Source of the DNA: Ignavibacteriota bacterium
GTDB lineage: Bacteria; Bacteroidota; Ignavibacteria; SZUA-365
Length of the DNA stretch: 64,000 nucleotides
Direction: 5' to 3'
Assembly: GCA_016218045.1 (NCBI GenBank)
Contig: JACRFB010000040.1
Coordinates: 248,001-312,000, forward strand
Positions 18,517-40,466 of this stretch are shown here, piece after piece. The position numbers were made by a program, and so were the translations under genes. The notes under the pieces were generated by a model that saw only the letters and a program-made list of their open reading frames with translations, did no database searches and had not been told where the DNA came from. How positions within the stretch are numbered: the first letter of the stretch is position 1; every line of letters starts with the position of its first letter.

Positions 18517-18733
18517 GTAAATCTAGGGAAAAGGGTCAAGGAAAACAAGAACGGTATGTCGGTGCTCTTCCAGGTTTGTTTTCCGGCCCGAACGGCGGAT
18601 ATTGGCGCGTTGCGCACACAGTGCCTGCCGCGCGTCACGCGCCAACCCGTTTCGACGTACGGCCGTTCCCGAAAAATTCGCCGGCAACGCTGCTTTGAAC
18701 GGCTTTCCGCATCAATCCGCCCGTATCCCGAAA

Positions 18734-20245
18734 GTGAAACCGCCTTTCTCGTCATCACGCATTTTATACAATGCGGTTCTGGTGCTGCTCTGCTGCAGTC
18801 CCGCGATACTTCGCTGGATTGTTGCGCCCGATTACCCCGGAACGGACGATGCGTTCATCCATGCCGCAATTATCGAGAACATTCACGAAGGTGCGGGCTG
18901 GGGCGTCAATGCGGGCGACCGCGTCTTCATGACCACGAGTCCCCTCTTTACCGCGGGATTTGTCTGCCTCCGCGCGTGCACACATGCGTATATGGAAATC
19001 GGCATGGCTCTGTCCCTGCTCGCGGGAATGGCTGCCATTGCCGGAGTGTACACTCTCACCCGGCTGCTAGGCGCACGCGGAAGCATCGTACCCCTCGCCG
19101 CGGGGGCCCTGACAGCGGCGAACCTGCACCTCTGGCGATGGAGTGGCGCATTTATCGAGGCGTCGTTTGCTGCGGCCGCTGTGATATGGGTGCTCTGCTT
19201 GTACTACTTTCTTGTCGAAAGAACGAAGCATCCGGCGGCGGCGGGCTGGCTTCTGCTTGGTTCCGCCTGTGGACTGCTTGTTTTGTTGCGCCCCGAAGCG
19301 GGTCTGCTGATCCCCGTCCTTTGTGCAGGTATTATCACGGCGAAACGGCCGCATGTCAGGACGCGGGTTGCCGCGCTCGCCTCGGGCGCGGCGTTTGTGC
19401 TTCTTGCAGCGGGTCTCGCGCTTTTTATGAACTTCGGCGACGTCCTGCCCTCCACGTTCTTTGCCAAATCGGAGTACGGTGTCCTTTGGATCAATACACG
19501 CGTCTGGACGCAGCTCGGATCCGTCATAACCACGGGATATGGCGGAGCGGCGCTGTGTGCGTCTGTGGTGCCGGTGTTGTTGTGGCGACGAAGCAACGCC
19601 GCCACGCGCGAGCGGCTGCGCCTCGTGCTGCCGCTGTTGCTTTTCCCCCTTGCAGGATGCGTGTTCTATTCTCTGAAACTCCCCTCACTGCAGAGCGCGG
19701 GCCGCTATACGCTCCCCTTTCTGATTTCTGCACCCTCACTGGTGGCGCTTACCTCGCAGTTCGCGAATCAGCGTCTCTGGACGCGACTCGTGCTGTGCGT
19801 GGCGGGTGTACAATTCGCGGCCGCTCTCTGGCTGCACGTGTCCACGACGGGACCGGTGTTGCGCACGATGCGCAGTGGATATGTGGAGGCGATGCGCGCC
19901 TGCGCCGGAGAGTTGAACCGGCGCGCGTTTCACAACGACAGTGTGCTCGTCTATATGGACATCGGTGTGATATCGCTCGAGCGGCGCCCTGATATCCGTA
20001 TCGTCGACGCTGCGGGACTCGCATCGCCATGGCTGCAAAACCTCGAGCTGTCTAACATCTTCTCCACCACATCAACACGCTTTGTCATCGAGAGTCTCGG
20101 CACGGAAGACCGGTATGTCGAGAAACACATGGCGGCCGCAGGTGTGCGCTACCGCGAGGTATGGAGTCGCAGCTTCCCCTCACCCGCGCTTGAAGGACGC
20201 GGGGCGCCGGTTACGGTGCGTCTGTTCGAGATCGCGGCGAAATAG
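18734..20245 (+). CDS. Multi-pass membrane protein, GT-C/ArnT-like glycosyltransferase fold
   Basis: About 503 residues with 10-11 hydrophobic helices. The first periplasmic loop contains PGTDDAFIHAAIIENI and a following TTSPLFTAGF block, the acidic-pair and TSPL pattern found in lipid-phosphosugar-dependent GT-C glycosyltransferases. A soluble C-terminal region (~380-503) follows the membrane part. Substrate unknown; probably glycosylates a cell-surface component. GTG at 18734 is chosen because the upstream extension (to a TTG at 18602) is basic and lacks a ribosome site; the start is uncertain. It is convergent with the ammonia-lyase gene. Confidence 0.75.
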   Translation: MKPPFSSSRILYNAVLVLLCCSPAILRWIVAPDYPGTDDAFIHAAIIENIHEGAGWGVNAGDRVFMTTSPLFTAGFVCLRACTHAYMEIGMALSLLAGMAAIAGVYTLTRLLGARGSIVPLAAGALTAANLHLWRWSGAFIEASFAAAAVIWVLCLYYFLVERTKHPAAAGWLLLGSACGLLVLLRPEAGLLIPVLCAGIITAKRPHVRTRVAALASGAAFVLLAAGLALFMNFGDVLPSTFFAKSEYGVLWINTRVWTQLGSVITTGYGGAALCASVVPVLLWRRSNAATRERLRLVLPLLLFPLAGCVFYSLKLPSLQSAGRYTLPFLISAPSLVALTSQFANQRLWTRLVLCVAGVQFAAALWLHVSTTGPVLRTMRSGYVEAMRACAGELNRRAFHNDSVLVYMDIGVISLERRPDIRIVDAAGLASPWLQNLELSNIFSTTSTRFVIESLGTEDRYVEKHMAAAGVRYREVWSRSFPSPALEGRGAPVTVRLFEIAAK

Positions 20246-20264
20246 TCGGCACGGAGTGCCTGCA

Positions 20265-22142
20265 TCAAACGAGCGCGTCGGCGGCGACGCCGGCCACGCC
20301 CCCCTCGAGCACAAGGCGTGACAGCTCTCGCAGCTCGCGCGACATGTACCGGTCCTCGGTCACGGCCGGGAAGACCTCGAGTATACGCGCGCGTACACGT
20401 TCGCACACTGGACTCAGGACACGCGCGTCGGGATCGATGCGGTGGCGCGCGGCGAGTTCCACACGGACGACGCGCGGCCCCGCAGCTCGCTGCTCCGCGT
20501 CCTCATCACGGGATACGGCAAGCCGCCTGTTCATGACCTCGGTGGCGCGTTGTTCCAGCACCTCCTTGAGAGCGCGCAGCTCTGCTCGCTCTTCGGCGCG
20601 GATAGAACGCTCGGCGGCATCAGAATCAGGCAGCGGCTCCTCGTGATCATCCTCCTCGTCGAGGAACAGGGATATCTTTGTCGGAACGGCCTCGGCCTGT
20701 CGTCGCGACTCTGCGGCCTGGGCGGCAAAGGCGAGCTCGATTGCAAGAATGTCTGCAAGGCGTGGAAGTGTGTCCCACAGCCGGGCCGCGAGTCCGGCCG
20801 CCATGCTCACATGATCTTCCTGACCCGCGTCCGTCGCGATCGAGAACAGATGCGACGGCATGGCCGCGCCCCAGATATGGTTCGCCAGGGCCGCGGATGC
20901 GTATTCGGGAATCATCATACCCGACGATACGGCGTCGAGCAGCGCATCGTCGTCACGCCATTCGTCGCGCCACTTGACGTCCTCGTTCAGGCCCTTGTTC
21001 TTTTTCCCGTCCACATACCGCGCGCAGCGGGTGTTCGAGAGTTTGGCCATGATGGCGGCCGCCTGCATCAGATTGTACAGCTTCACGGCGACGGGCATCG
21101 CGTGAAAATTGCCTCCCGAAACGATGTCGGTCCACGACTCCGCTCCGGTCAAAGGATCGTGTTGCGGAAGGATGAGCGGATTGTCGGTGGCGCTGTTCAG
21201 TTCGATTTCGAATGTTGCGCGTGCCTCCTCGAGCAGGTCGTGGCATGTGCCGAGTATCTGTGGGGCGCATCGAAGATTGTACGGATCCTGCACCTCGCCG
21301 TCGATGTCGAAGCCGCGGTGTGTCTCGCGGATCGGCGAGCCGTCCATCAACTGCCGCACCCAGCGGGCGATGGTGCGCGCGCCCTCGTGCGGGCGGAGCG
21401 CGAGCAGATCGTCGCGGAACGGCCGGTCGGATCCGAGCATGACCTGCGTGCTCATCGCTGTCGCGATCGAGGCGGTTTTGATCAGCGTGCACATGCGGTC
21501 GTAGGCGAATATCCCCGCGCCGGTGCTGAACGTCGTTCCGTTGTTCAGCGCGAGGCCTTCCTTCATCTCAAGCTGCACGGGTTCGATGCCGGCGCGACGC
21601 ATGGCTTCACACGCGGGGATCGGCGTTTCGTCGTCTCCGTACCACGCCTCGCCGTCGCGTGTATCTGTTGCTATCATCACGAGGGCGACGTGGGATAACG
21701 GAGCAAGATCGCCGCTGGCACCCACCGAGCCGTACCAGGGGATACACGGTGTCACCCCGCGGTTGAGCATTTCGAGAAGTGTTTCGACGATCAACGGCCG
21801 CACGGCGCTGGCGCCGCGTGTCAACGACAGTGCGCGCACAAAAAGCACAGCGCGGACGATGTCCCGCGGTACGAGCGGCCCCATGCCCGCCGCATGTGAA
21901 CGGATCAGGTTCTCCTGCAGCAATTTGATTCGTTCTTCGCCGTCGACGCGTTGATCCACATTGTGACCGAAGCCGCGGTTGAATCCATACGACGGGGCGC
22001 GGTGTTCGCGTACGTACCGTACCACCTGGGCGCGGCGTGTCTCGAGCATCGCGGCAGTCTCCGCCGCAAGCTCCACCTTCTCGCCGCGTACAACCGCGAG
22101 TACGTCGTCGAGCGTGTACCTTCTGTCGTGAGCGACGATCAT
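20265..22142 (-). CDS. hutH: Histidine ammonia-lyase-like enzyme with large charged insertion
   Basis: A 625-residue MIO-type ammonia-lyase, about 110 longer than usual HutH. Residues 142-144 (GASGDLAPL) form the MIO cofactor. The active-site Tyr is in SYGFNRGFG (Tyr52), Ser-His at 82-83 suits histidine as substrate, and QDPYNLRC (285-292) is conserved. Residues ~478-575 hold an insertion rich in Glu, Asp and Arg, predicted partly coiled coil, before the normal C-terminal block. The gene overlaps the hisS stop by 4 bp (ATGA), so the two are coupled. A fused FtcD elsewhere in the window (38844) supports histidine catabolism. Substrate assignment is inference. Confidence 0.85.
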   Translation of the reverse strand: MIVAHDRRYTLDDVLAVVRGEKVELAAETAAMLETRRAQVVRYVREHRAPSYGFNRGFGHNVDQRVDGEERIKLLQENLIRSHAAGMGPLVPRDIVRAVLFVRALSLTRGASAVRPLIVETLLEMLNRGVTPCIPWYGSVGASGDLAPLSHVALVMIATDTRDGEAWYGDDETPIPACEAMRRAGIEPVQLEMKEGLALNNGTTFSTGAGIFAYDRMCTLIKTASIATAMSTQVMLGSDRPFRDDLLALRPHEGARTIARWVRQLMDGSPIRETHRGFDIDGEVQDPYNLRCAPQILGTCHDLLEEARATFEIELNSATDNPLILPQHDPLTGAESWTDIVSGGNFHAMPVAVKLYNLMQAAAIMAKLSNTRCARYVDGKKNKGLNEDVKWRDEWRDDDALLDAVSSGMMIPEYASAALANHIWGAAMPSHLFSIATDAGQEDHVSMAAGLAARLWDTLPRLADILAIELAFAAQAAESRRQAEAVPTKISLFLDEEDDHEEPLPDSDAAERSIRAEERAELRALKEVLEQRATEVMNRRLAVSRDEDAEQRAAGPRVVRVELAARHRIDPDARVLSPVCERVRARILEVFPAVTEDRYMSRELRELSRLVLEGGVAGVAADALV

Positions 22143-23704
22143 GATCGTGCGAGCATCCCCTTGACTGTTTCGACCATGTCGGTCACGGTCACTTCCACCT
22201 GCGCCGGATTCGCCGCGAGCCAGGTTTCCCGGTTCTCGGCGTTCTTTGCGTATTCTTTTCCGAGGTAGAGATCCTTTATCGATACGGTCCCCTTCTCGAA
22301 TTCATTCCCGCCGGCAATGATGGCTACGGGACAGCCGCGCGCATCTGCATAGGCGAACTGGCCCTTCAGGCGCTTCTCACCGCCGTAATACACTTCCGTC
22401 TCGATGCCCGCCGCGCGAAGCTGTTGCGCAAGCGCCTGATACTCGGCCATACGCGGCCTGTCCATCACCGTCACCAGCACCGGGCCGCGCATGCCTTTGC
22501 CCTCGCCCTGCAGCGATAACAACTCCGCGAGTCGGTCGACGCCGATCGATGCGCCCGTGGCCGGCACGGGCACATGCAGAAGTTTTTCGACGAGATTGTC
22601 GTAGCGGCCTCCGCCGCTGATCGCGCCAAAGCGCCTGAGCAATCCCGATTCGTCGCGCACTTCGAGCGTCGACACCGCTTCGAATACCGGCCCGGTGTAA
22701 TAGGCGAGCCCGCGCGCGATGGACGGATCAAAACGCACACGGTCGTCGCCGTAGCCAAGTCCCGCGAGCGTCTGGTGAATCAGGATCAGTTCATCGAGGC
22801 CTTCCCTGCCCGCTGGAGTCTGGCCGAGCAGCGGCTCGAGCCGCGCGAGCATGGTGGATCTGTCGCCTTCGACCGACGAGAGTTCCACGTAGTCGAGCAG
22901 TGATGCTATCGCGGAATCGGGGAGCGCAAGTCCGGGAATGCGGGCGCCCGATGAATCCGTGCGGCCGGGTCCGAGTTCGCCGGCGATGCCGTCGCGACCG
23001 ATCTTGTCGTACTTGTCGAGCACGCGCATGATGTCGCCGCCAATGCCCTGCTCTTCCAGACCCAGTTTTTGGAAAAGACCCGCGTGTAACTTGCGGTTGT
23101 TGACACGCACTTCATAGGTGCCGCGTGCGAGACCGATTGCCTCGAGCGCGTCGCTCAGGATGCAGCACACCTCGGCATCACACGTGATGTCGGCAACACC
23201 GACCGTGTCGAAATCGAGCTGCCAGAATTCGCGGAACCGTCCCGGGTCGAGTTTCGCCTCGAAGCGGTACACGGGTCCGTACTGGAAACGGCGGAACAGC
23301 GGCATGCCGACTTTGCGGTCCTTCGCCGTGTGACGGTCGTCCCACAGGTCGCTTGCGTATTTTCGCGCGAGCGGCGCGGTGAGGTCGTAGCGCAGCGACA
23401 GGAAGTGATTCTCCAACAGCACGTTGTTGTCGTTGTCGCGCAGTTCCCGCCCGTCGGTGTCGAGGATGGGTTCGCGCTCCGGATTCCTGAATGAATAGAC
23501 GCCCTGGTCTATCGTGTCGGAATCGGGCAGATACTTGCCGAGACATTCGGCGTACTCCACCACGGGCGTGTCCCAGTGCTCGAAGCCGTAGCTGCGGTAC
23601 ACGGCCGATGCGGCGTTGATGATCCTCCACCGCAGTTCGTTCAGATTCGGGCTCACGTCGCGGAAACCACGCACCGTGCGTGGAAGAGTGCCTCGATTCG
23701 CCAT
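22139..23704 (-). CDS. hisS: Histidyl-tRNA synthetase, divergent alphaproteobacterial-like type
   Basis: A 521-residue class II synthetase, ~100 longer than the common bacterial form. It has LRYDLTAPLARKYA where typical bacterial HisRS has an LRPEGT motif. Its motif-2 loop FEAKLDPGRFREFWQ lacks the usual R-P-Q that contacts G-1. LGKYLPDSDTIDQGVYSF and YEVRVNNRKL resemble the Caulobacter-type enzyme. The histidine-binding RGLAYYTGPVFE is intact. The ATG at 23704 has GAGG 7 bp upstream. It lies 52 bp downstream of a tRNA-His gene with matching unusual identity bases, and its stop overlaps the hutH start. Confidence 0.94.
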   Translation of the reverse strand: MANRGTLPRTVRGFRDVSPNLNELRWRIINAASAVYRSYGFEHWDTPVVEYAECLGKYLPDSDTIDQGVYSFRNPEREPILDTDGRELRDNDNNVLLENHFLSLRYDLTAPLARKYASDLWDDRHTAKDRKVGMPLFRRFQYGPVYRFEAKLDPGRFREFWQLDFDTVGVADITCDAEVCCILSDALEAIGLARGTYEVRVNNRKLHAGLFQKLGLEEQGIGGDIMRVLDKYDKIGRDGIAGELGPGRTDSSGARIPGLALPDSAIASLLDYVELSSVEGDRSTMLARLEPLLGQTPAGREGLDELILIHQTLAGLGYGDDRVRFDPSIARGLAYYTGPVFEAVSTLEVRDESGLLRRFGAISGGGRYDNLVEKLLHVPVPATGASIGVDRLAELLSLQGEGKGMRGPVLVTVMDRPRMAEYQALAQQLRAAGIETEVYYGGEKRLKGQFAYADARGCPVAIIAGGNEFEKGTVSIKDLYLGKEYAKNAENRETWLAANPAQVEVTVTDMVETVKGMLARS

Positions 23705-23756
23705 GGGTATCCTCAGGATGGACTCGAAGTGGGAGGATGCGGCCCCGTCAGGGGTG

Positions 23757-23833
23757 TGGTACCGTCGATAGGGATCGAACCTATGACCTCCAGATCCACA
23801 ATCTGGCGCTCTAACCAACTGAGCTACGACGGC
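23757..23833 (-). tRNA. tRNA-His (GTG anticodon), lacking encoded G-1
   Basis: A complete cloverleaf on the minus strand: acceptor GCCGTCG/CGACGGT, D-stem GCTC/GAGC, anticodon stem CCAGA/TCTGG with loop TTGTGGA (anticodon GTG), T-stem ATAGG/CCTAT with loop TTCGATC. CCA is encoded (23757-23759). Unusually the base before G1 is T, the 1:72 pair is G:U, the discriminator is A73, and the D-loop AGTTGGTTA has U20a. Canonical bacterial tRNA-His has G-1 opposite C73. These features match the aberrant tRNA-His known from Caulobacter-type alphaproteobacteria. Confidence 0.97.
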
Positions 23834-23842
23834 AAGAGAACC

Positions 23843-23873
23843 GCAATGTACGCAGAACTAATTGGATTTCAAA
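23843..23873 (-). promoter_or_regulatory. Candidate promoter of tRNA-His-hisS-hutH unit
   Basis: On the minus strand TTTG (23870-23873) is separated by 19 bp from TACATTGC (23843-23850), close to the Bacteroidota pattern TTTG-N19-TAnnTTTG. The predicted start would lie within a few bases of the tRNA 5' end. The element overlaps the 3' end of the lipocalin gene. Confidence 0.55.
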
Positions 23874-24391
23874 CCGTCGCAATCGTGGGTGGTAACTTGC
23901 ATGGTGGCCGTGTCGAAGCCGCGCGCGGCGAGCCGGTCGGTGAGCATGCGCAAGGTGTCGGGATGCATCCGGGGTGTCCGCGACAATATCCAGAAGTACT
24001 TGCGGCTCGGAAGGCCCACAACCGCGTAGGAATAATCGTCCGCGAGATCGAGTATCCAGTAGTCTCCGCGGAAAGGCCAGAAAAACTGCACTCGCAGTTT
24101 TGTGTTGTTCGTGTTCGGGACGATGAAGGCCTTGCCTTCCGCCTGGCTGATTTCCCCACCCTTCCGGCAGGTGTTCACGACGCGGATGTCGCCGTCCTCG
24201 CGGATCGAGTACTCGGCCGTCGTGCAGCGGCATCCTTCCTGCTGACTCACCGGCTTCGAGGCGATCTCGTTCCACAACCCGGTGTACCGTTGCAGGTCGA
24301 CGGATTGGACAGTGTCGAGCGGAGCGTAATTGCCGCCGCATCCCGCCAAGCAGGCCAGCACCAGTATCATCCCCACGATATTTCGCGCCAT
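23858..24391 (-). CDS. Lipocalin-family outer-membrane lipoprotein (Blc-like)
   Basis: A 177-residue lipoprotein. The signal peptide ends in LAGC, so Cys18 would be lipidated. The body matches bacterial lipocalin Blc: YTGLWNEIASKP (GxW motif), a C-x-C-T-T-A-E-Y strand, RVQFFWPFRGDYWIL and VVGLPSRKYFWILSRTP. These bind lipids such as fatty acids or lysophospholipids at the outer membrane. The ATG at 24391 has GGAGGAGG upstream. It ends 24 bp before the tRNA-His gene. Confidence 0.92.
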   Translation of the reverse strand: MARNIVGMILVLACLAGCGGNYAPLDTVQSVDLQRYTGLWNEIASKPVSQQEGCRCTTAEYSIREDGDIRVVNTCRKGGEISQAEGKAFIVPNTNNTKLRVQFFWPFRGDYWILDLADDYSYAVVGLPSRKYFWILSRTPRMHPDTLRMLTDRLAARGFDTATMQVTTHDCDGLKSN

Positions 24392-24508
24392 TGTGACCTC
24401 CTCCGTTGACAGGTTCGTTTTCCGCCAACTTACTCCGACCCGCCTCGATCTCCTAGCCACGCCCGGCGTCGACTAGTACGTGCGTCCGCCCCGCTTTGTG
24501 CCCTGCAT

Positions 24509-24537
24509 AAAAAACGGGAGCGGTGTTCCCGCCCCCG
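24509..24537 (-). terminator. Rho-independent terminator of the nitrite operon
   Basis: A 9-bp GC-rich stem (24515-24523 pairing with 24529-24537, one G:U) with a 5-base loop is followed on the minus strand by six T residues (24509-24514). It lies 35 bp past the stop of the HAO-like cytochrome and closes the operon. Confidence 0.92.
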
Positions 24538-24571
24538 TATGTTTGCGCTTGAATACTGCGTTGTGAACGCC

Positions 24572-25810
24572 CTATTTCTTCGCCTTCTCCCGAAGATCCG
24601 CCGCGATGGTGCGTATTTCGGTCAGATCTCGCTGGAGTTCGCTCCATCCATACCAAAGCGCATAGTCGGGGTTCGCATGGAAGGTGCCCTGGAAGGCGCG
24701 CATGCGATGCTCGAGGAACATCACAAACAGTTTCTGTTCGATGACGGTCGGGGCATCGTGGAATGTGAGCAGATCCGGGAAATCAAAGTTGTAGTTTTTC
24801 GGCTTGGCGAGGACGCCGTCCTTGTACAGAGCGGCCACGATGCGTATGGCCTCGGCCATGACGTGATCGGCTTCGCGGATCATGTCGTCGCCCTTCGCGA
24901 GTTCGCCCTTCGCAAACTCGGATGCGTGACACTTGTTGCAGGTGCGCTGCATCTTGTCGCGCTCTGTTTGCCACGATTCCTGTGTGAGGCGCGCCACATC
25001 GGCGGCCTTGACCACATCGAGCCGCGCGGTGGGTTTGCCGGAAGGATCGAGCACGCCGAGCGCCTGGAGAATCGTGGCGCGGTCGGCTGTCCACTGCGCA
25101 TCATCGGGCATGGGAAGTCTCACCGCGAGGAAGCCCCAGGCCGTGCGTACTTCATGATTGCCCTCCTGCATGTGACAGTCCTGACAGGTCGGAGCGGCCG
25201 TGCCCTCGGGCAGGGTCTTGTTCTGTTTCAGGAGATACCGCACACCGTGTTTGGAACCCGAGTACATCTCCCACTGCGCGTGGTCGAAGCCCGTGTGGCA
25301 GGTCTGACATGCCTGCGGCTGCCGTGCCTCGGTCGTGGAAAATGTGTGCCGCGTGTGGCACGCGTCACAGGCGGCAGTGCCGAAACCGGGGCTCGTCTTT
25401 TTGAGTTCGGTGATGTCGGCTTCACTCTTTTCACCGATCTTGTGGCAGCCGCCGCATCCTTTCATGCCAACGGTCATCGCCATCGGCTGGAAATGCGCCG
25501 TGGGCATTGCTTTCATCGACGCCCACGCAATCGAGTGTTTGCCTTTTCGGTACTGCGCGACCTGATCCGCGTGGCAGGTCTTGCATGTTTCCGGGGTCGG
25601 GATGCGGGCCTCCTTCACATTGGACGGTCCGTTGTGTTTGTCGCCGTGGCAGTCGTCGCAGCCGATCGAGTTCTGCGCATGTTTGCTGAGCTGCCAGTCG
25701 CTGACGATCTGTGGCGTTTTCATTTTGTGACACGTGACGCATTGCTGCGCGGTCATCGGGACCACCGCGAAGACAAGCATTGCCGCGAGGAGAGAGAGGT
25801 ACTTTTTCAT
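24572..25810 (-). CDS. Octaheme HAO-family cytochrome c
   Basis: A 412-residue exported protein with a signal peptide (1-21) and eight CxxCH heme sites: ~24, 51, 76, 119, 148, 168, 209 and 284. The C-terminal half has blocks typical of hydroxylamine oxidoreductase-like cytochromes: RTAWGFLAVRLPMP, FPDLLTFHDAPTVIEQ, MFLEHRMRAFQGTFH and NPDYALWYGW. The family oxidises hydroxylamine or, in ammonifiers, reduces nitrite or hydroxylamine. I cannot tell whether the HAO cross-linking tyrosine is present. It is the last gene of the operon containing nrfHA, which favours a reductive or detoxifying role. ATG at 25810. Confidence 0.9.
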   Translation of the reverse strand: MKKYLSLLAAMLVFAVVPMTAQQCVTCHKMKTPQIVSDWQLSKHAQNSIGCDDCHGDKHNGPSNVKEARIPTPETCKTCHADQVAQYRKGKHSIAWASMKAMPTAHFQPMAMTVGMKGCGGCHKIGEKSEADITELKKTSPGFGTAACDACHTRHTFSTTEARQPQACQTCHTGFDHAQWEMYSGSKHGVRYLLKQNKTLPEGTAAPTCQDCHMQEGNHEVRTAWGFLAVRLPMPDDAQWTADRATILQALGVLDPSGKPTARLDVVKAADVARLTQESWQTERDKMQRTCNKCHASEFAKGELAKGDDMIREADHVMAEAIRIVAALYKDGVLAKPKNYNFDFPDLLTFHDAPTVIEQKLFVMFLEHRMRAFQGTFHANPDYALWYGWSELQRDLTEIRTIAADLREKAKK

Positions 25811-25902
25811 GATGCACCGTGATGGGGATTGAGGTATGTGGGGTGTGGCAATGTCCTTTCTGTACCGGGCTGCCGACCGGAGATTGTTTATTCCGGCGCG
25901 TG

Positions 25903-26418
25903 TCAAGCCCCGGCGACCGAGAAAAATGTGATGACTGCGCCCTCGGCGTCCTTGCGCGTCCACGATTCGTACCCGCGGCCATGCGCCATGTCGATGAGTG
26001 GACCCGGCCGGAAGGGCGTGACGAGTTGATACACGCCGCCCGCCGGAAGTTCCGAAAGTTCCCGCATCACTCGCTGCGCGGGATGTACCCCGGCGGCCAG
26101 ATCCTCGCGCGCGTCGTAACGCACCAGCACTGTCGCGGACACAACCCACGAGGGCGTGCCGTCATGCGCGCCGTCCTGCGCCGCGGCATCGCGCGTCTCG
26201 TTCTGGCCCACGCGTTCGCGGAGCAGATTCACGAGCGCGCCCGGCGTCGTTTTGTCGAGAGCCGCCAGTTGTGCAATCGTGGTGACCTTTGCGATCGCGC
26301 TGCGCAATACGGCGTTTCGCGGTGTCGCAAACGCCGGCGAATGCGCGAGCAACGCTTCTTCGAGCTGCGGGTATACTTCGAGCAGCGCGGCGATGTTTGT
26401 TTCCGGCATTATGTGCAT
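25903..26418 (-). CDS. DUF1858/DUF2249 two-domain protein
   Basis: A 171-residue cytoplasmic protein. Residues ~1-65 (MPETNIAALLEVYPQLEEAL, then SPAFATPRNAVLRSAIAKVTTI) match DUF1858. Residues ~90-171 (VLVRYDAREDLAAGVHPAQR, then LPAGGVYQLVTPFRPGPL) match DUF2249. This pairing is often found with DUF438/hemerythrin proteins in anaerobes exposed to nitric oxide. The ATG at 26418 has an AGGAAGGGAAG stretch upstream. Its biochemical role is unknown. It lies 44 bp after the DUF438 gene. Confidence 0.85.
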   Translation of the reverse strand: MHIMPETNIAALLEVYPQLEEALLAHSPAFATPRNAVLRSAIAKVTTIAQLAALDKTTPGALVNLLRERVGQNETRDAAAQDGAHDGTPSWVVSATVLVRYDAREDLAAGVHPAQRVMRELSELPAGGVYQLVTPFRPGPLIDMAHGRGYESWTRKDAEGAVITFFSVAGA

Positions 26419-26462
26419 GTCGGGCTTCCCTTCCTCAGTGTGTGTGTCATCATTGCACCGGC

Positions 26463-27695
26463 TCAGGAAACGTAGTCGAGAATACGCTGCTCGCCCGTGA
26501 GCGCGCGTTTTGCTGTCAGATCCTGGCTCACTTCCAGCGTGCCGAGATACTCGCCGTCGATGCCGCGCACCGCGAAATATTCGATGTGGATGAACTTGCC
26601 GCCAAGGGTGATCCAAAAGGCGGCGCGGTCCTGCGTCCCGCTCCGGAAATCGTCGAGAATTTTCTGAACAACATGGACGCTCGACGGGGGATGGCAGAAC
26701 TGCACCTTCCTCCCGAGTATTGCCCGGTTCCGGTCGAAAATGCGCTCCCGGCCCTGCGTGAAATATCGGACTGTGTCATCCTTATCTACCCAGGTAAGAT
26801 CCACCGGCAGTGTGTTCAATACGGCGGTCAGTTCCGGCAGCGAAAAGCTTCCGCTCGGCATCTGTATACGTTCGCCGACCGGACCCGCGGGCACGACTCC
26901 TTCACCCAGGTCGGGTTTCCATTCGTCGCGCGGATCAACGAGGCAGAATCCGATTTCGGGACTCTGCCGCGCAATTTCGAACCATTCCACATCGGTCAGC
27001 CGGTCGAGACACATCGGGAAAAGTATCTGTTCCTCCTTGAACACCATTTCCTGAATGCCTTTGATCGCGGGCTTCAGAACCAACTCCGACACGGTGAATA
27101 CTTCGTCCACCGTCAGCTCTCCGGCCTGCGCGAGCACCTCCGACGCGGCGCGGAGCTGATCGCGAATCTGGTCATGTTTCGCCCACATGACCGTGGGTGG
27201 GCCTGTCACTCCGTATTTCTCGAGGTACGGGAAGACAAGATTCTCCTTGCGTCGGTAGTGTGTGTCCACACCCATGAGCCGGTTGAATACCGGTCGGATG
27301 GTGTTGATCGCATCGGCGAGCGCGTTCTGCTCGGTCACCGAGTCGAGTTCGGCCAGCAGTGGGCGGAGCGCGTCGATCTCGCCTTCCAGCGCGCGGTTTT
27401 CCTCCATGAAGGTATGCACCGGATGGCCCGGGGCGACGTCCTTCATGCCTGCCAGCGATATGTTGCCCTTGAGCACTTCGCCGTGCATGTCGCAGAGGTT
27501 GATTACCTCTTCGTGGGGCAGGCCCTCGTTCATCAATTCCTGCTCCACTTCCACGACAAGTCCGTAGGGGACCTCGCCGAGCATTTCCGACACGCGCGCT
27601 TTCACATCCGCAGTGTCGTTTGTTTTGTGCAGCTCGCGGATCAGTTCCTTGAGCTGCTGTTTTTTTTGTGCGGTGTTGTCGATCAGTTCACTCAT
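26463..27695 (-). CDS. DUF438-hemerythrin-PAS protein
   Basis: A 410-residue protein. Residues ~1-95 form a DUF438 domain (ELIRELHKTND...VEVEQELMNEGLPHEEV). Residues ~95-240 form a hemerythrin-like four-helix domain (HPVHTFMEENRALE, HYRRKENLVFPYLEKYG, KHDQIRDQL, EEQILFPM). Residues ~295-405 are PAS-like (LTWVDKDDTVRYF and GRKVQFCHPP). Homologues are linked to nitrosative stress, with the di-iron site sensing or consuming NO or O2. It begins 8 bp after nrfA, so it is part of the operon. Confidence 0.9.
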   Translation of the reverse strand: MSELIDNTAQKKQQLKELIRELHKTNDTADVKARVSEMLGEVPYGLVVEVEQELMNEGLPHEEVINLCDMHGEVLKGNISLAGMKDVAPGHPVHTFMEENRALEGEIDALRPLLAELDSVTEQNALADAINTIRPVFNRLMGVDTHYRRKENLVFPYLEKYGVTGPPTVMWAKHDQIRDQLRAASEVLAQAGELTVDEVFTVSELVLKPAIKGIQEMVFKEEQILFPMCLDRLTDVEWFEIARQSPEIGFCLVDPRDEWKPDLGEGVVPAGPVGERIQMPSGSFSLPELTAVLNTLPVDLTWVDKDDTVRYFTQGRERIFDRNRAILGRKVQFCHPPSSVHVVQKILDDFRSGTQDRAAFWITLGGKFIHIEYFAVRGIDGEYLGTLEVSQDLTAKRALTGEQRILDYVS

Positions 27696-27703
27696 GGTAT
27701 AGG

Positions 27704-38726: not shown

Positions 38727-38771
38727 CCGCACCGCGGCTAGTTGTCCGAGCGAGGGAATCGCTCTATTTTT

Positions 38772-38805
38772 GCGGGCGCGCTCCGGTCTCACGGGGCGCG
38801 CCCGC
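38772..38805 (+). other. GC-rich hairpin between ybjQ and ftcD
   Basis: An inverted repeat gcgggcgcgc...gcgcgcccgc (38772-38781 and 38796-38805) encloses a smaller ccg...cgg pairing. No T-run follows on either strand, so it is not a standard intrinsic terminator. It lies 39 bp before the ftcD start. Confidence 0.45.
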
Positions 38806-38843
38806 GCCATTCATCCCCTCTCACCTTCTCTCCCCGCATCTCC

Positions 38844-40466
38844 ATGAAAAAAATCGTTGAGTGTGTTCCGAATTTTTCGGAAGGCCGCGACCCCCGCATC
38901 ATCGAAGCCATCGCCGAAAGCATCCGTAAAACTCCGGGTTGTACGCTTCTCGATGTCGATCCCGGAAAATCGACCAACCGTACGGTGTATACCTTCGTCG
39001 GCTCGCCCGAGGCGGTGGTCGAAGGCGCTCTCAACTCTGCCCGCGCTGCGCAATCGCTCATCGACATGCGCACGCAGTCGGGAGAACATCCGCGTGTTGG
39101 GGCGATGGACGTCTGCCCCTTCGTGCCTGTCGCTGGAGTGACGATGGAGGACTGTGTCGCCCTCGCGCACGAATTCGGGCGGCGAGCGGGCGAGGAACTC
39201 GGCATTCCCATATACCTCTACGAGGAAGCATCGACACGCGAGTACCGGAAATCGCTGCGGCAGATACGCGCGGGCGAGTATGAGGGTCTTGCCGATCGTA
39301 TCGTGACGGAGGAATGGAAGCCCGACTATGGCCCCGCAGCGTTTGTCCCAGCATGGGGTGCGACGTGCACCGGCGCGCGTTTCTTCCTCATTGCCTACAA
39401 CGTGAATGTGCTGGGCACAAAAGAGCAGGCGCACCGCATCGCGTTGAATATCCGTGAGCAGGGCCGCGGCCCGGGCGAACCTGGTCGGCTCGAAGCGGTG
39501 AAGGCCATCGGGTGGTGGGTCGACGAATACAACATGGCACAAGTCTCGATCAACCTCGACAACTACAAGGTCACTCCCCCGCATGTCGCGTTCGAGGAAG
39601 TGGCCGCCGATGCCCGCGCCCTGAATCTGGCGGTCGCTGGATCCGAGCTTGTCGGACTCATCCCGCTCGAAGCCCTGCTCATGGCCGCCGACTACTACAT
39701 CGAAAGGGAAAATCTCTTTATCATCGACGAGCATCAAAAAATACGCCTCGCCGTCGAACGCCTCGGACTGAATTCCGTGTCGCGCTTCGAACCGCAAAAA
39801 CGCATCATCGACTATATGATCGAGGACGGCGCGCAGGAACCTCTGGCATCACTCACTGTGCGGGGATTCGTCGAACTGCTCGGCGCGCGCACCCCCGCTC
39901 CGGGCGGCGGCAGTGCCTCCGCTCTTATCGCGTCCATGGGCGCGGGCCTCGGAGCGATGGTCGGCTGGATGACCTACGGCAAGAGGAAATTCGAGGAGAA
40001 GGACGCTATCATGCGCGAACTGATTCCACCCCTCGACGCGGCGATGCGCGACCTGATCCCCATGATCGATGCCGACACCAATGCTTTCAACGACTATATG
40101 GCCGCGCTCGGACTTCCGAAAGAAACGCCCGAACAGAAAGATGTGCGGAGCCAGGCCATGCAGGACGGCCTCAAAAAGGCCATCGACGTCCCGCTCTCGA
40201 CGATGCGCATCGCCGACCGCTGCTGGCCACAGATGCTGCAAATGGCGGAGCATGGGAACATCGCATCCAAATCCGATCTCGAAGTCGGCGCAAAGGCGCT
40301 GGAGACGGGCATCTGGGGCGCATATAAAAACGTGCTCATCAATCTCGGTTCCGTGACCGATACCGCATACCGTGACAGGATACGCGGTGAAGCGGATCAG
40401 TTTGTCAACCGCGCGCGTGAATTCTCGATTGCAGTGCTGTCTGCTCTCGACTCACGCGCGAACTGA
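38844..40466 (+). CDS. ftcD: Glutamate formimidoyltransferase fused to formimidoyl-THF cyclodeaminase
   Basis: A 540-residue bifunctional enzyme. Residues 1-~325 form the glutamate formiminotransferase (KKIVECVPNFSEGRDP, MDVCPFVPVAG, NYKVTPPHVAFEEV). Residues ~345-540 form the cyclodeaminase, an all-helical domain with GARTPAPGGGSASALIASMGAG. Together they move the formimino group of histidine-derived N-formiminoglutamate to tetrahydrofolate and release ammonia. The ATG at 38844 gives the family N-terminus. It is the only other histidine-degradation gene in the window besides the ammonia-lyase. Confidence 0.95.
   Translation: MKKIVECVPNFSEGRDPRIIEAIAESIRKTPGCTLLDVDPGKSTNRTVYTFVGSPEAVVEGALNSARAAQSLIDMRTQSGEHPRVGAMDVCPFVPVAGVTMEDCVALAHEFGRRAGEELGIPIYLYEEASTREYRKSLRQIRAGEYEGLADRIVTEEWKPDYGPAAFVPAWGATCTGARFFLIAYNVNVLGTKEQAHRIALNIREQGRGPGEPGRLEAVKAIGWWVDEYNMAQVSINLDNYKVTPPHVAFEEVAADARALNLAVAGSELVGLIPLEALLMAADYYIERENLFIIDEHQKIRLAVERLGLNSVSRFEPQKRIIDYMIEDGAQEPLASLTVRGFVELLGARTPAPGGGSASALIASMGAGLGAMVGWMTYGKRKFEEKDAIMRELIPPLDAAMRDLIPMIDADTNAFNDYMAALGLPKETPEQKDVRSQAMQDGLKKAIDVPLSTMRIADRCWPQMLQMAEHGNIASKSDLEVGAKALETGIWGAYKNVLINLGSVTDTAYRDRIRGEADQFVNRAREFSIAVLSALDSRAN

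Follow-up and report, generated by a model that had tools for sequence, protein, structure and literature searches.

The closest described relative of the system reported here is the histidine pair of Caulobacter crescentus and other Alphaproteobacteria, in which tRNA-His carries no encoded G-1 and has U72 and A73, and the histidyl-tRNA synthetase (HisRS) lacks the R-P-Q of the motif-2 loop (Ardell and Andersson 2006, Wang et al. 2007 and Yuan et al. 2011, as represented in passages of PMC9976931, PMC3937112, PMC5370408 and PMC3875453). According to a passage of PMC3937112, the loss of G-1 together with A73 probably has a single bacterial origin, which lies within one alphaproteobacterial group, and transfers of a foreign tRNA identity must be comparatively rare. 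Archaeal-like tyrosyl- and tryptophanyl-tRNA synthetases with matching tRNA identities are described in part of PMC5370408 for the Candidate Phyla Radiation (CPR), another example of a foreign synthetase with altered tRNA identity rules in bacteria. In this study, we analysed a 64,000-nucleotide stretch of an Ignavibacteriota bacterium (assembly GCA_016218045.1, contig JACRFB010000040.1), hereafter the window. It encodes a tRNA-His, hisS and a histidine ammonia-lyase-like gene in one direction and in that order (Table 1). The sequence comparisons support well the view that the tRNA-His and its synthetase were transferred into this genome as a linked identity pair.

We read the ends of the window tRNA-His gene directly. 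The -1 base is T, so that no G-1 is encoded, and the acceptor stem GCCGTCG/CGACGGT forms 7 pairs, with G1:U72 at its end, A73 as the discriminator and an encoded CCA. The D-loop has two bases (20 and 20a) between G19 and A21. Thus, both the canonical G-1 and the canonical C73 are missing from a gene found by ARAGORN and by the Rfam model RF00005 (E 3.5e-14). The hisS gene starts 52 nt downstream of the tRNA, and its product passes the curated TIGR00442 cut-off (303.7 bits against 286.75) and contains the HGTP anticodon-binding domain PF03129 (48.5 bits). An AlphaFold model of the enzyme has a predicted local distance difference test (pLDDT) score of 86.6, and its best fold matches are HisRS structures. 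The segments LRYDLTAPLAR and LGKYLPD...GVYSF are present, and the motif-2 loop reads KLDPGRFREF, with no R-P-Q. These readings bear out an earlier note on this DNA, which had described the tRNA (U before G1, G1:U72, A73, U20a, encoded CCA), the HisRS segments and the placement of the two genes side by side. The window pair shares with the canonical E. coli-type pair its amino acid, anticodon and synthetase fold, but has none of the features G-1:C73, G1:C72 and R-P-Q.

To place the enzyme, we built a HisRS tree of 97 rows, with supports from the Shimodaira-Hasegawa-like approximate likelihood ratio test (SH-aLRT). The nearest enzyme is that of an Oligoflexales metagenome-assembled genome (MAG; locus L078), with 64% identity and a pairing support of 94. 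Both lie within a 51-row clade (SH-aLRT 100), which is sister (support 99) to the 7 sampled alphaproteobacterial enzymes and does not fall inside them. Five HisRS from relatives in the same class form the next branch. The sampled HisRS from the same family as the host group with the E. coli enzyme, and in each of the eleven same-family genomes the window HisRS finds only weak and partial matches, as it does with ordinary bacterial enzymes. The window enzyme therefore stands near the alphaproteobacterial enzymes and apart from the HisRS of its family, as a Caulobacter-type assignment in the earlier note would lead one to expect. That assignment holds as to relatedness and has to be amended as to origin: in the tree, the enzyme is placed in a sister clade of its own that extends over several phyla, and it is neither drawn from the sampled alphaproteobacterial enzymes nor a direct copy of them. 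It also differs from them in having KLDPGR where they have KPGPGR, a clade-specific insertion and a tRNA gene beside hisS.

The window pair is the only one that we found in the host genome, a draft of 72 contigs and 4.77 Mb that is 99.09% complete. It contains 44 tRNA genes, one of them for tRNA-His, and one HisRS above the TIGR00442 cut-off; the other matches are weak and partial (28-32 bits) and lie in other long frames. Thus, tRNA scans and the TIGR00442 profile search of the assembly revealed neither a second tRNA-His nor a second hisS, which answers a check proposed in the earlier note. The A73 of the window tRNA is shared with eukaryotic tRNA-His, which receives G-1 post-transcriptionally from Thg1. 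A search with PF04446 gave no Thg1 match in the host genome, and the same search detects the Thg1 of Methanosarcina. Contamination was considered and ruled out from the synteny of the flanks and from gcvP on the same contig, since it is 65-72% identical to the full-length copies of same-family genomes.

G-1, G1:C72 and C73 are present in all ten same-family tRNA-His genes whose ends could be read; a contig end cuts an eleventh. In four of the five same-family regions read, the native tRNA-His adjoins yceD at the end of a gcvP-fabH-plsX-yceD run, and its other neighbour is nrfA or a gene following nrfA (g31217 in locus L298). In the exception (genome G201) the two flanks lie at separate places, and tRNA-His still adjoins nrfA. 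At this same place the window carries the lyase, hisS, the foreign tRNA-His and a few other genes, and no relic of a native tRNA-His was detected around the block. The window tRNA-His is 88-89% identical over its whole length to the closest G-1-less tRNAs, from the clade and from class relatives, and up to 90-92% identical in the body. Compared with the same-family tRNAs, it has a mean whole-length identity of 70%, and at most 80% outside the acceptor stem. It also has the longer D-loop of the clade tRNAs. Since the tRNA resembles the G-1-less tRNAs and not those of the family, it probably arrived with the enzyme. The earlier note had left open a transferred or an independently evolved identity switch; the occupied native locus and the foreign tRNA body together argue for transfer and against an independent switch.

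Taken together, this data suggests that a linked block of G-1-less tRNA-His, hisS and histidine ammonia-lyase was very probably acquired by horizontal transfer and displaced the native pair. In this scenario the block would have taken over the locus of the native G-1/C73 tRNA-His, with the native hisS lost and, apparently, a native-type hutH as well. RNase P would be predicted to take off the whole leader and leave a mature 5' end at G1. The enzyme would then read the GUG anticodon and the acceptor end (position 72 and base 73) through K-L-D-P-G-R in place of R-P-Q, with no need for G-1. By analogy with the described pairs, a distinct charging specificity and orthogonality are expected: G-1/C73 tRNAs should be poor substrates for the new enzyme, as should the new tRNA for the resident one. 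If so, the native pair could be replaced only when both genes arrived together, which would explain their adjacency across phyla.

Several observations weigh against this explanation or limit it. No integrase or clear attachment (att) repeats were seen at the block; a single 20-nt direct repeat (85%) at 18553 and 28740 could be due to chance. The GC content of the block is about 0.63, close to its surroundings, and gives no compositional support for a foreign origin. Calling the block mobile is a conclusion from its distribution, and most of the comparison genomes are MAGs. The alphaproteobacterial side of the tree consists of 7 rows from two orders. The tRNA is absent from 11 clade loci at which 1 kb or more of upstream sequence is available, and thus the linkage can be lost.

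A different reading of the tRNA end is that RNase P keeps U-1 and that this base pairs with A73; the identity element would then be a -1:73 pair of a kind other than G:C. T-1 is found in 40 of 47 A73 tRNAs, against about half (21/43) of the tRNAs of the host genome, and both U73 tRNAs have A-1, which could also pair. However, bacterial leaders often have T-1 in any case, the tRNAs are related to one another, the background comes from one genome, and some members have C-1 or A-1 opposite A73. A passage of a review (PMC6471195) also states that the G-1-less alphaproteobacterial tRNA-His carries no added nucleotide. We consider retention of U-1 unlikely.

Ardell and Andersson reportedly described, in 2006, an in-place change of the resident tRNA-His in Alphaproteobacteria. 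Applied here, HisRS alone would have been transferred, and the resident tRNA-His would then have lost G-1 and become A73 in place. PMC3937112 and PMC5370408 describe an explanation along this line for the Alphaproteobacteria, and the position of the window tRNA-His at the native locus fits it. It is nevertheless quite improbable for the window: the tRNA body is up to 90% identical to G-1-less tRNAs against at most 80% to family members, its D-loop has the greater length seen in clade tRNAs, and tRNA-His adjoins hisS in most clade loci. Vertical inheritance of a G-1-less pair that the relatives lost would agree with the related G-1-less pairs in other families of the class (f4, f7 and f12). We regard it as very improbable, as all eleven same-family genomes are without this type and those examined have an ordinary pair, family members keep the native tRNA-His at the syntenic site, and the closest relative of the window HisRS belongs to another phylum. 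The draft state of the genome might speak for an artefact of binning or assembly. This is barely credible, however: the contig that contains the block is 314 kb long, the genes flanking the block on either side are syntenic and typical of the family, and the assembly has no further tRNA-His or HisRS.

Transfer of the linked block is also consistent with the distribution of the pair in other bacteria. We examined 56 clade loci, all from one scan of a genome collection. In 42, tRNA-His precedes hisS on the same strand, and in 40 of these the distance is 23-204 nt. The linked loci belong to Bacteroidales, Saprospiraceae, Chitinophagales, Ignavibacteria, a Kapabacteria MAG, Acidobacteria, Aminicenantes and Oligoflexales, and none of the 42 linked tRNAs has G-1 or C73. 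At the 7 alphaproteobacterial loci examined there is no tRNA within 1.5 kb of hisS; the linkage is a property of the sister clade. A single HisRS above the cut-off was found in 24 of 25 genomes tested that carry a clade or related enzyme. Among 395 Bacteroidota genomes, 9 have a tRNA-His that matches the search pattern with a base other than C73, where an absent match is no proof of C73. The HisRS was typed, by search with the window enzyme, in 198 of these genomes, and among them a non-C73 tRNA-His matched in exactly the 6 with an alpha-like enzyme.

Two MAGs contain more than one kind of pair. One (G241, SZUA-53; loci L080, L130 and L234) has two tRNA-His-hisS pairs, with G73 and A73, and a separate G-1/C73 tRNA-His; this is either a mixed bin or true coexistence. 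The other (G288, Kapabacteria; loci L132, L236 and L237) has a G-1-less pair and, on other contigs, a canonical HisRS and a G-1/C73 tRNA-His, which is either a mixed bin or an intermediate state.

The acceptor ends vary within the clade. Many tRNAs have G1:U72 with A73, and those of Saprospiraceae and Chitinophagales have C1:G72 with A73 (L086-L117 and others). Rarer ends are U1:A72 with A73 in two (L109 and L115), G73 in four and U73 in two; the ends C1:G72, U1:A72, G73 and U73 are additions to what the alphaproteobacterial pair shows. We found no published report of the C1:G72/A73 type in the open-access literature. In 48 of 49 cases, x in the loop K-L-x-P-G-R is Asp where the tRNA has G1:U72 and a different residue where it does not; L083 is the one that departs from this. 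On the tree, Asp changes 3 times and the 1:72 pair 5 times, too few independent events for significance. The same position is Gln (of R-P-Q) in canonical enzymes and Gly in alphaproteobacterial ones; the window HisRS has Asp in place of the Caulobacter-type Gly. A Gln-to-Gly change in this loop is said, in a passage of PMC3937112, to covary with G-1:C73, and we take its position to be that of D153 in the window enzyme.

Some individual tRNAs stand apart. In the genome of L083, the only tRNA-His found (L174) has G-1, G1:C72 and A73, and its HisRS loop is DLDPGR. The two tRNAs with U73 (L081:2090-2163 and L127:5796-5869) have an A-1 that could pair, and both HisRS have His before the loop Lys (EHKLDPGR). 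In the genomes of L123 and L104, tRNA-His (L164 and L165) has G1:C72, A73, C-1 and two acceptor-stem mismatches.

We propose with a little better than even confidence that tRNA-His and a G-1-independent HisRS form a transferable translation-identity module. The two genes would pass jointly from phylum to phylum and take the place of the resident pair, and the acceptor code would have shifted again inside the module (G1:U72 to C1:G72 or U1:A72, and A73 to G73 or U73). The natural pairs that result may show orthogonality towards the canonical pair and, in part, among themselves. In the open-access literature we found no publication that describes a G-1-less tRNA-His for bacteria other than Alphaproteobacteria. 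The trait is now seen in Bacteroidota/Ignavibacteria, Acidobacteriota, Aminicenantes and one Oligoflexales genome, in most cases with the tRNA and synthetase genes adjacent, and the window is a clear case of a resident tRNA displaced at its own locus. The same linked pair in several phyla suggests that a piece of the decoding machinery can move as a unit. Unlike the CPR enzymes, which serve other amino acids in other lineages, the histidine pair of the window is adjacent and sits at the native tRNA locus. The movement of identity rules between organisms thereby becomes directly testable, and a set of natural histidine pairs, including the C1:G72/A73 type, is on offer for genetic code expansion.

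Table 1. Positions in the window of the replaced segment, the histidine pair and associated features.
Feature	Position	Strand	Evidence or remark
Segment between yceD and nrfA, at the native tRNA-His place of same-family genomes	18517..27703		Synteny with L296, L297, L298 and L300
Histidine ammonia-lyase-like MIO enzyme	20265..22142	-	PF00221, 472.7 bits; its start codon and the stop codon of hisS overlap (ATGA)
hisS, histidyl-tRNA synthetase of the G-1-less clade, 521 aa, ATG start	22139..23704	-	Profile match, tree, AlphaFold model
Motif-2 loop codons, residues 147-160	23225..23266	-	Codon 23246-23248 is D153, the residue tracking the 1:72 pair
Clade-specific HisRS insertion, about residues 76-104	23393..23479	-	Alignment; missing from the enzymes of f4/f7 class relatives
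tRNA-His(GUG), U-1, G1:U72, A73, encoded CCA	23757..23833	-	ARAGORN; Rfam 73.4 bits; end bases read directly
Possible promoter TTGAAA-16-TACATT, just upstream of tRNA-His	23845..23872	-	Consensus scan only, weak

The lyase beside hisS belongs to the enzymes with a methylidene-imidazolone (MIO) group. It falls below the NCBIfam HutH cut-off (432 bits against 539.15), and the alignment shows that it retains the MIO motif and the HutH active-site residues. The order tRNA-hisS-lyase is common to the window and the Oligoflexales locus L078, where the two lyases are 55% identical. Same-family genomes have a standard HutH-like enzyme and a second type; of these the host genome has the second type alone, together with the window lyase, and it contains hutU. 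The arrival of the block may thus have replaced hutH too. We also considered whether the lyase is a third member exclusive to the module. This idea was weakened by two findings: 4 of 24 ordinary Bacteroidia loci also have a lyase next to hisS, so that it is not specific to the G-1-less pair, and most Saprospiraceae loci lack it. More broadly, MIO ammonia-lyases of several subtypes lie beside hisS genes of different HisRS types, in the window, at L051, L052, L056, L062, L066 and L068, and at 18 clade loci; these neighbours come from Bacteroidota and others.

The consensus scan behind the possible promoter gave 2 matches against 1.0 expected by chance. Within the replaced segment, a large membrane-protein-like frame on the opposite strand (18602-20245, tested from 18692) has no Pfam match. 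Near the block, at 38742-40466, we identified by eye a protein resembling glutamate formimidoyltransferase, an enzyme of histidine breakdown.

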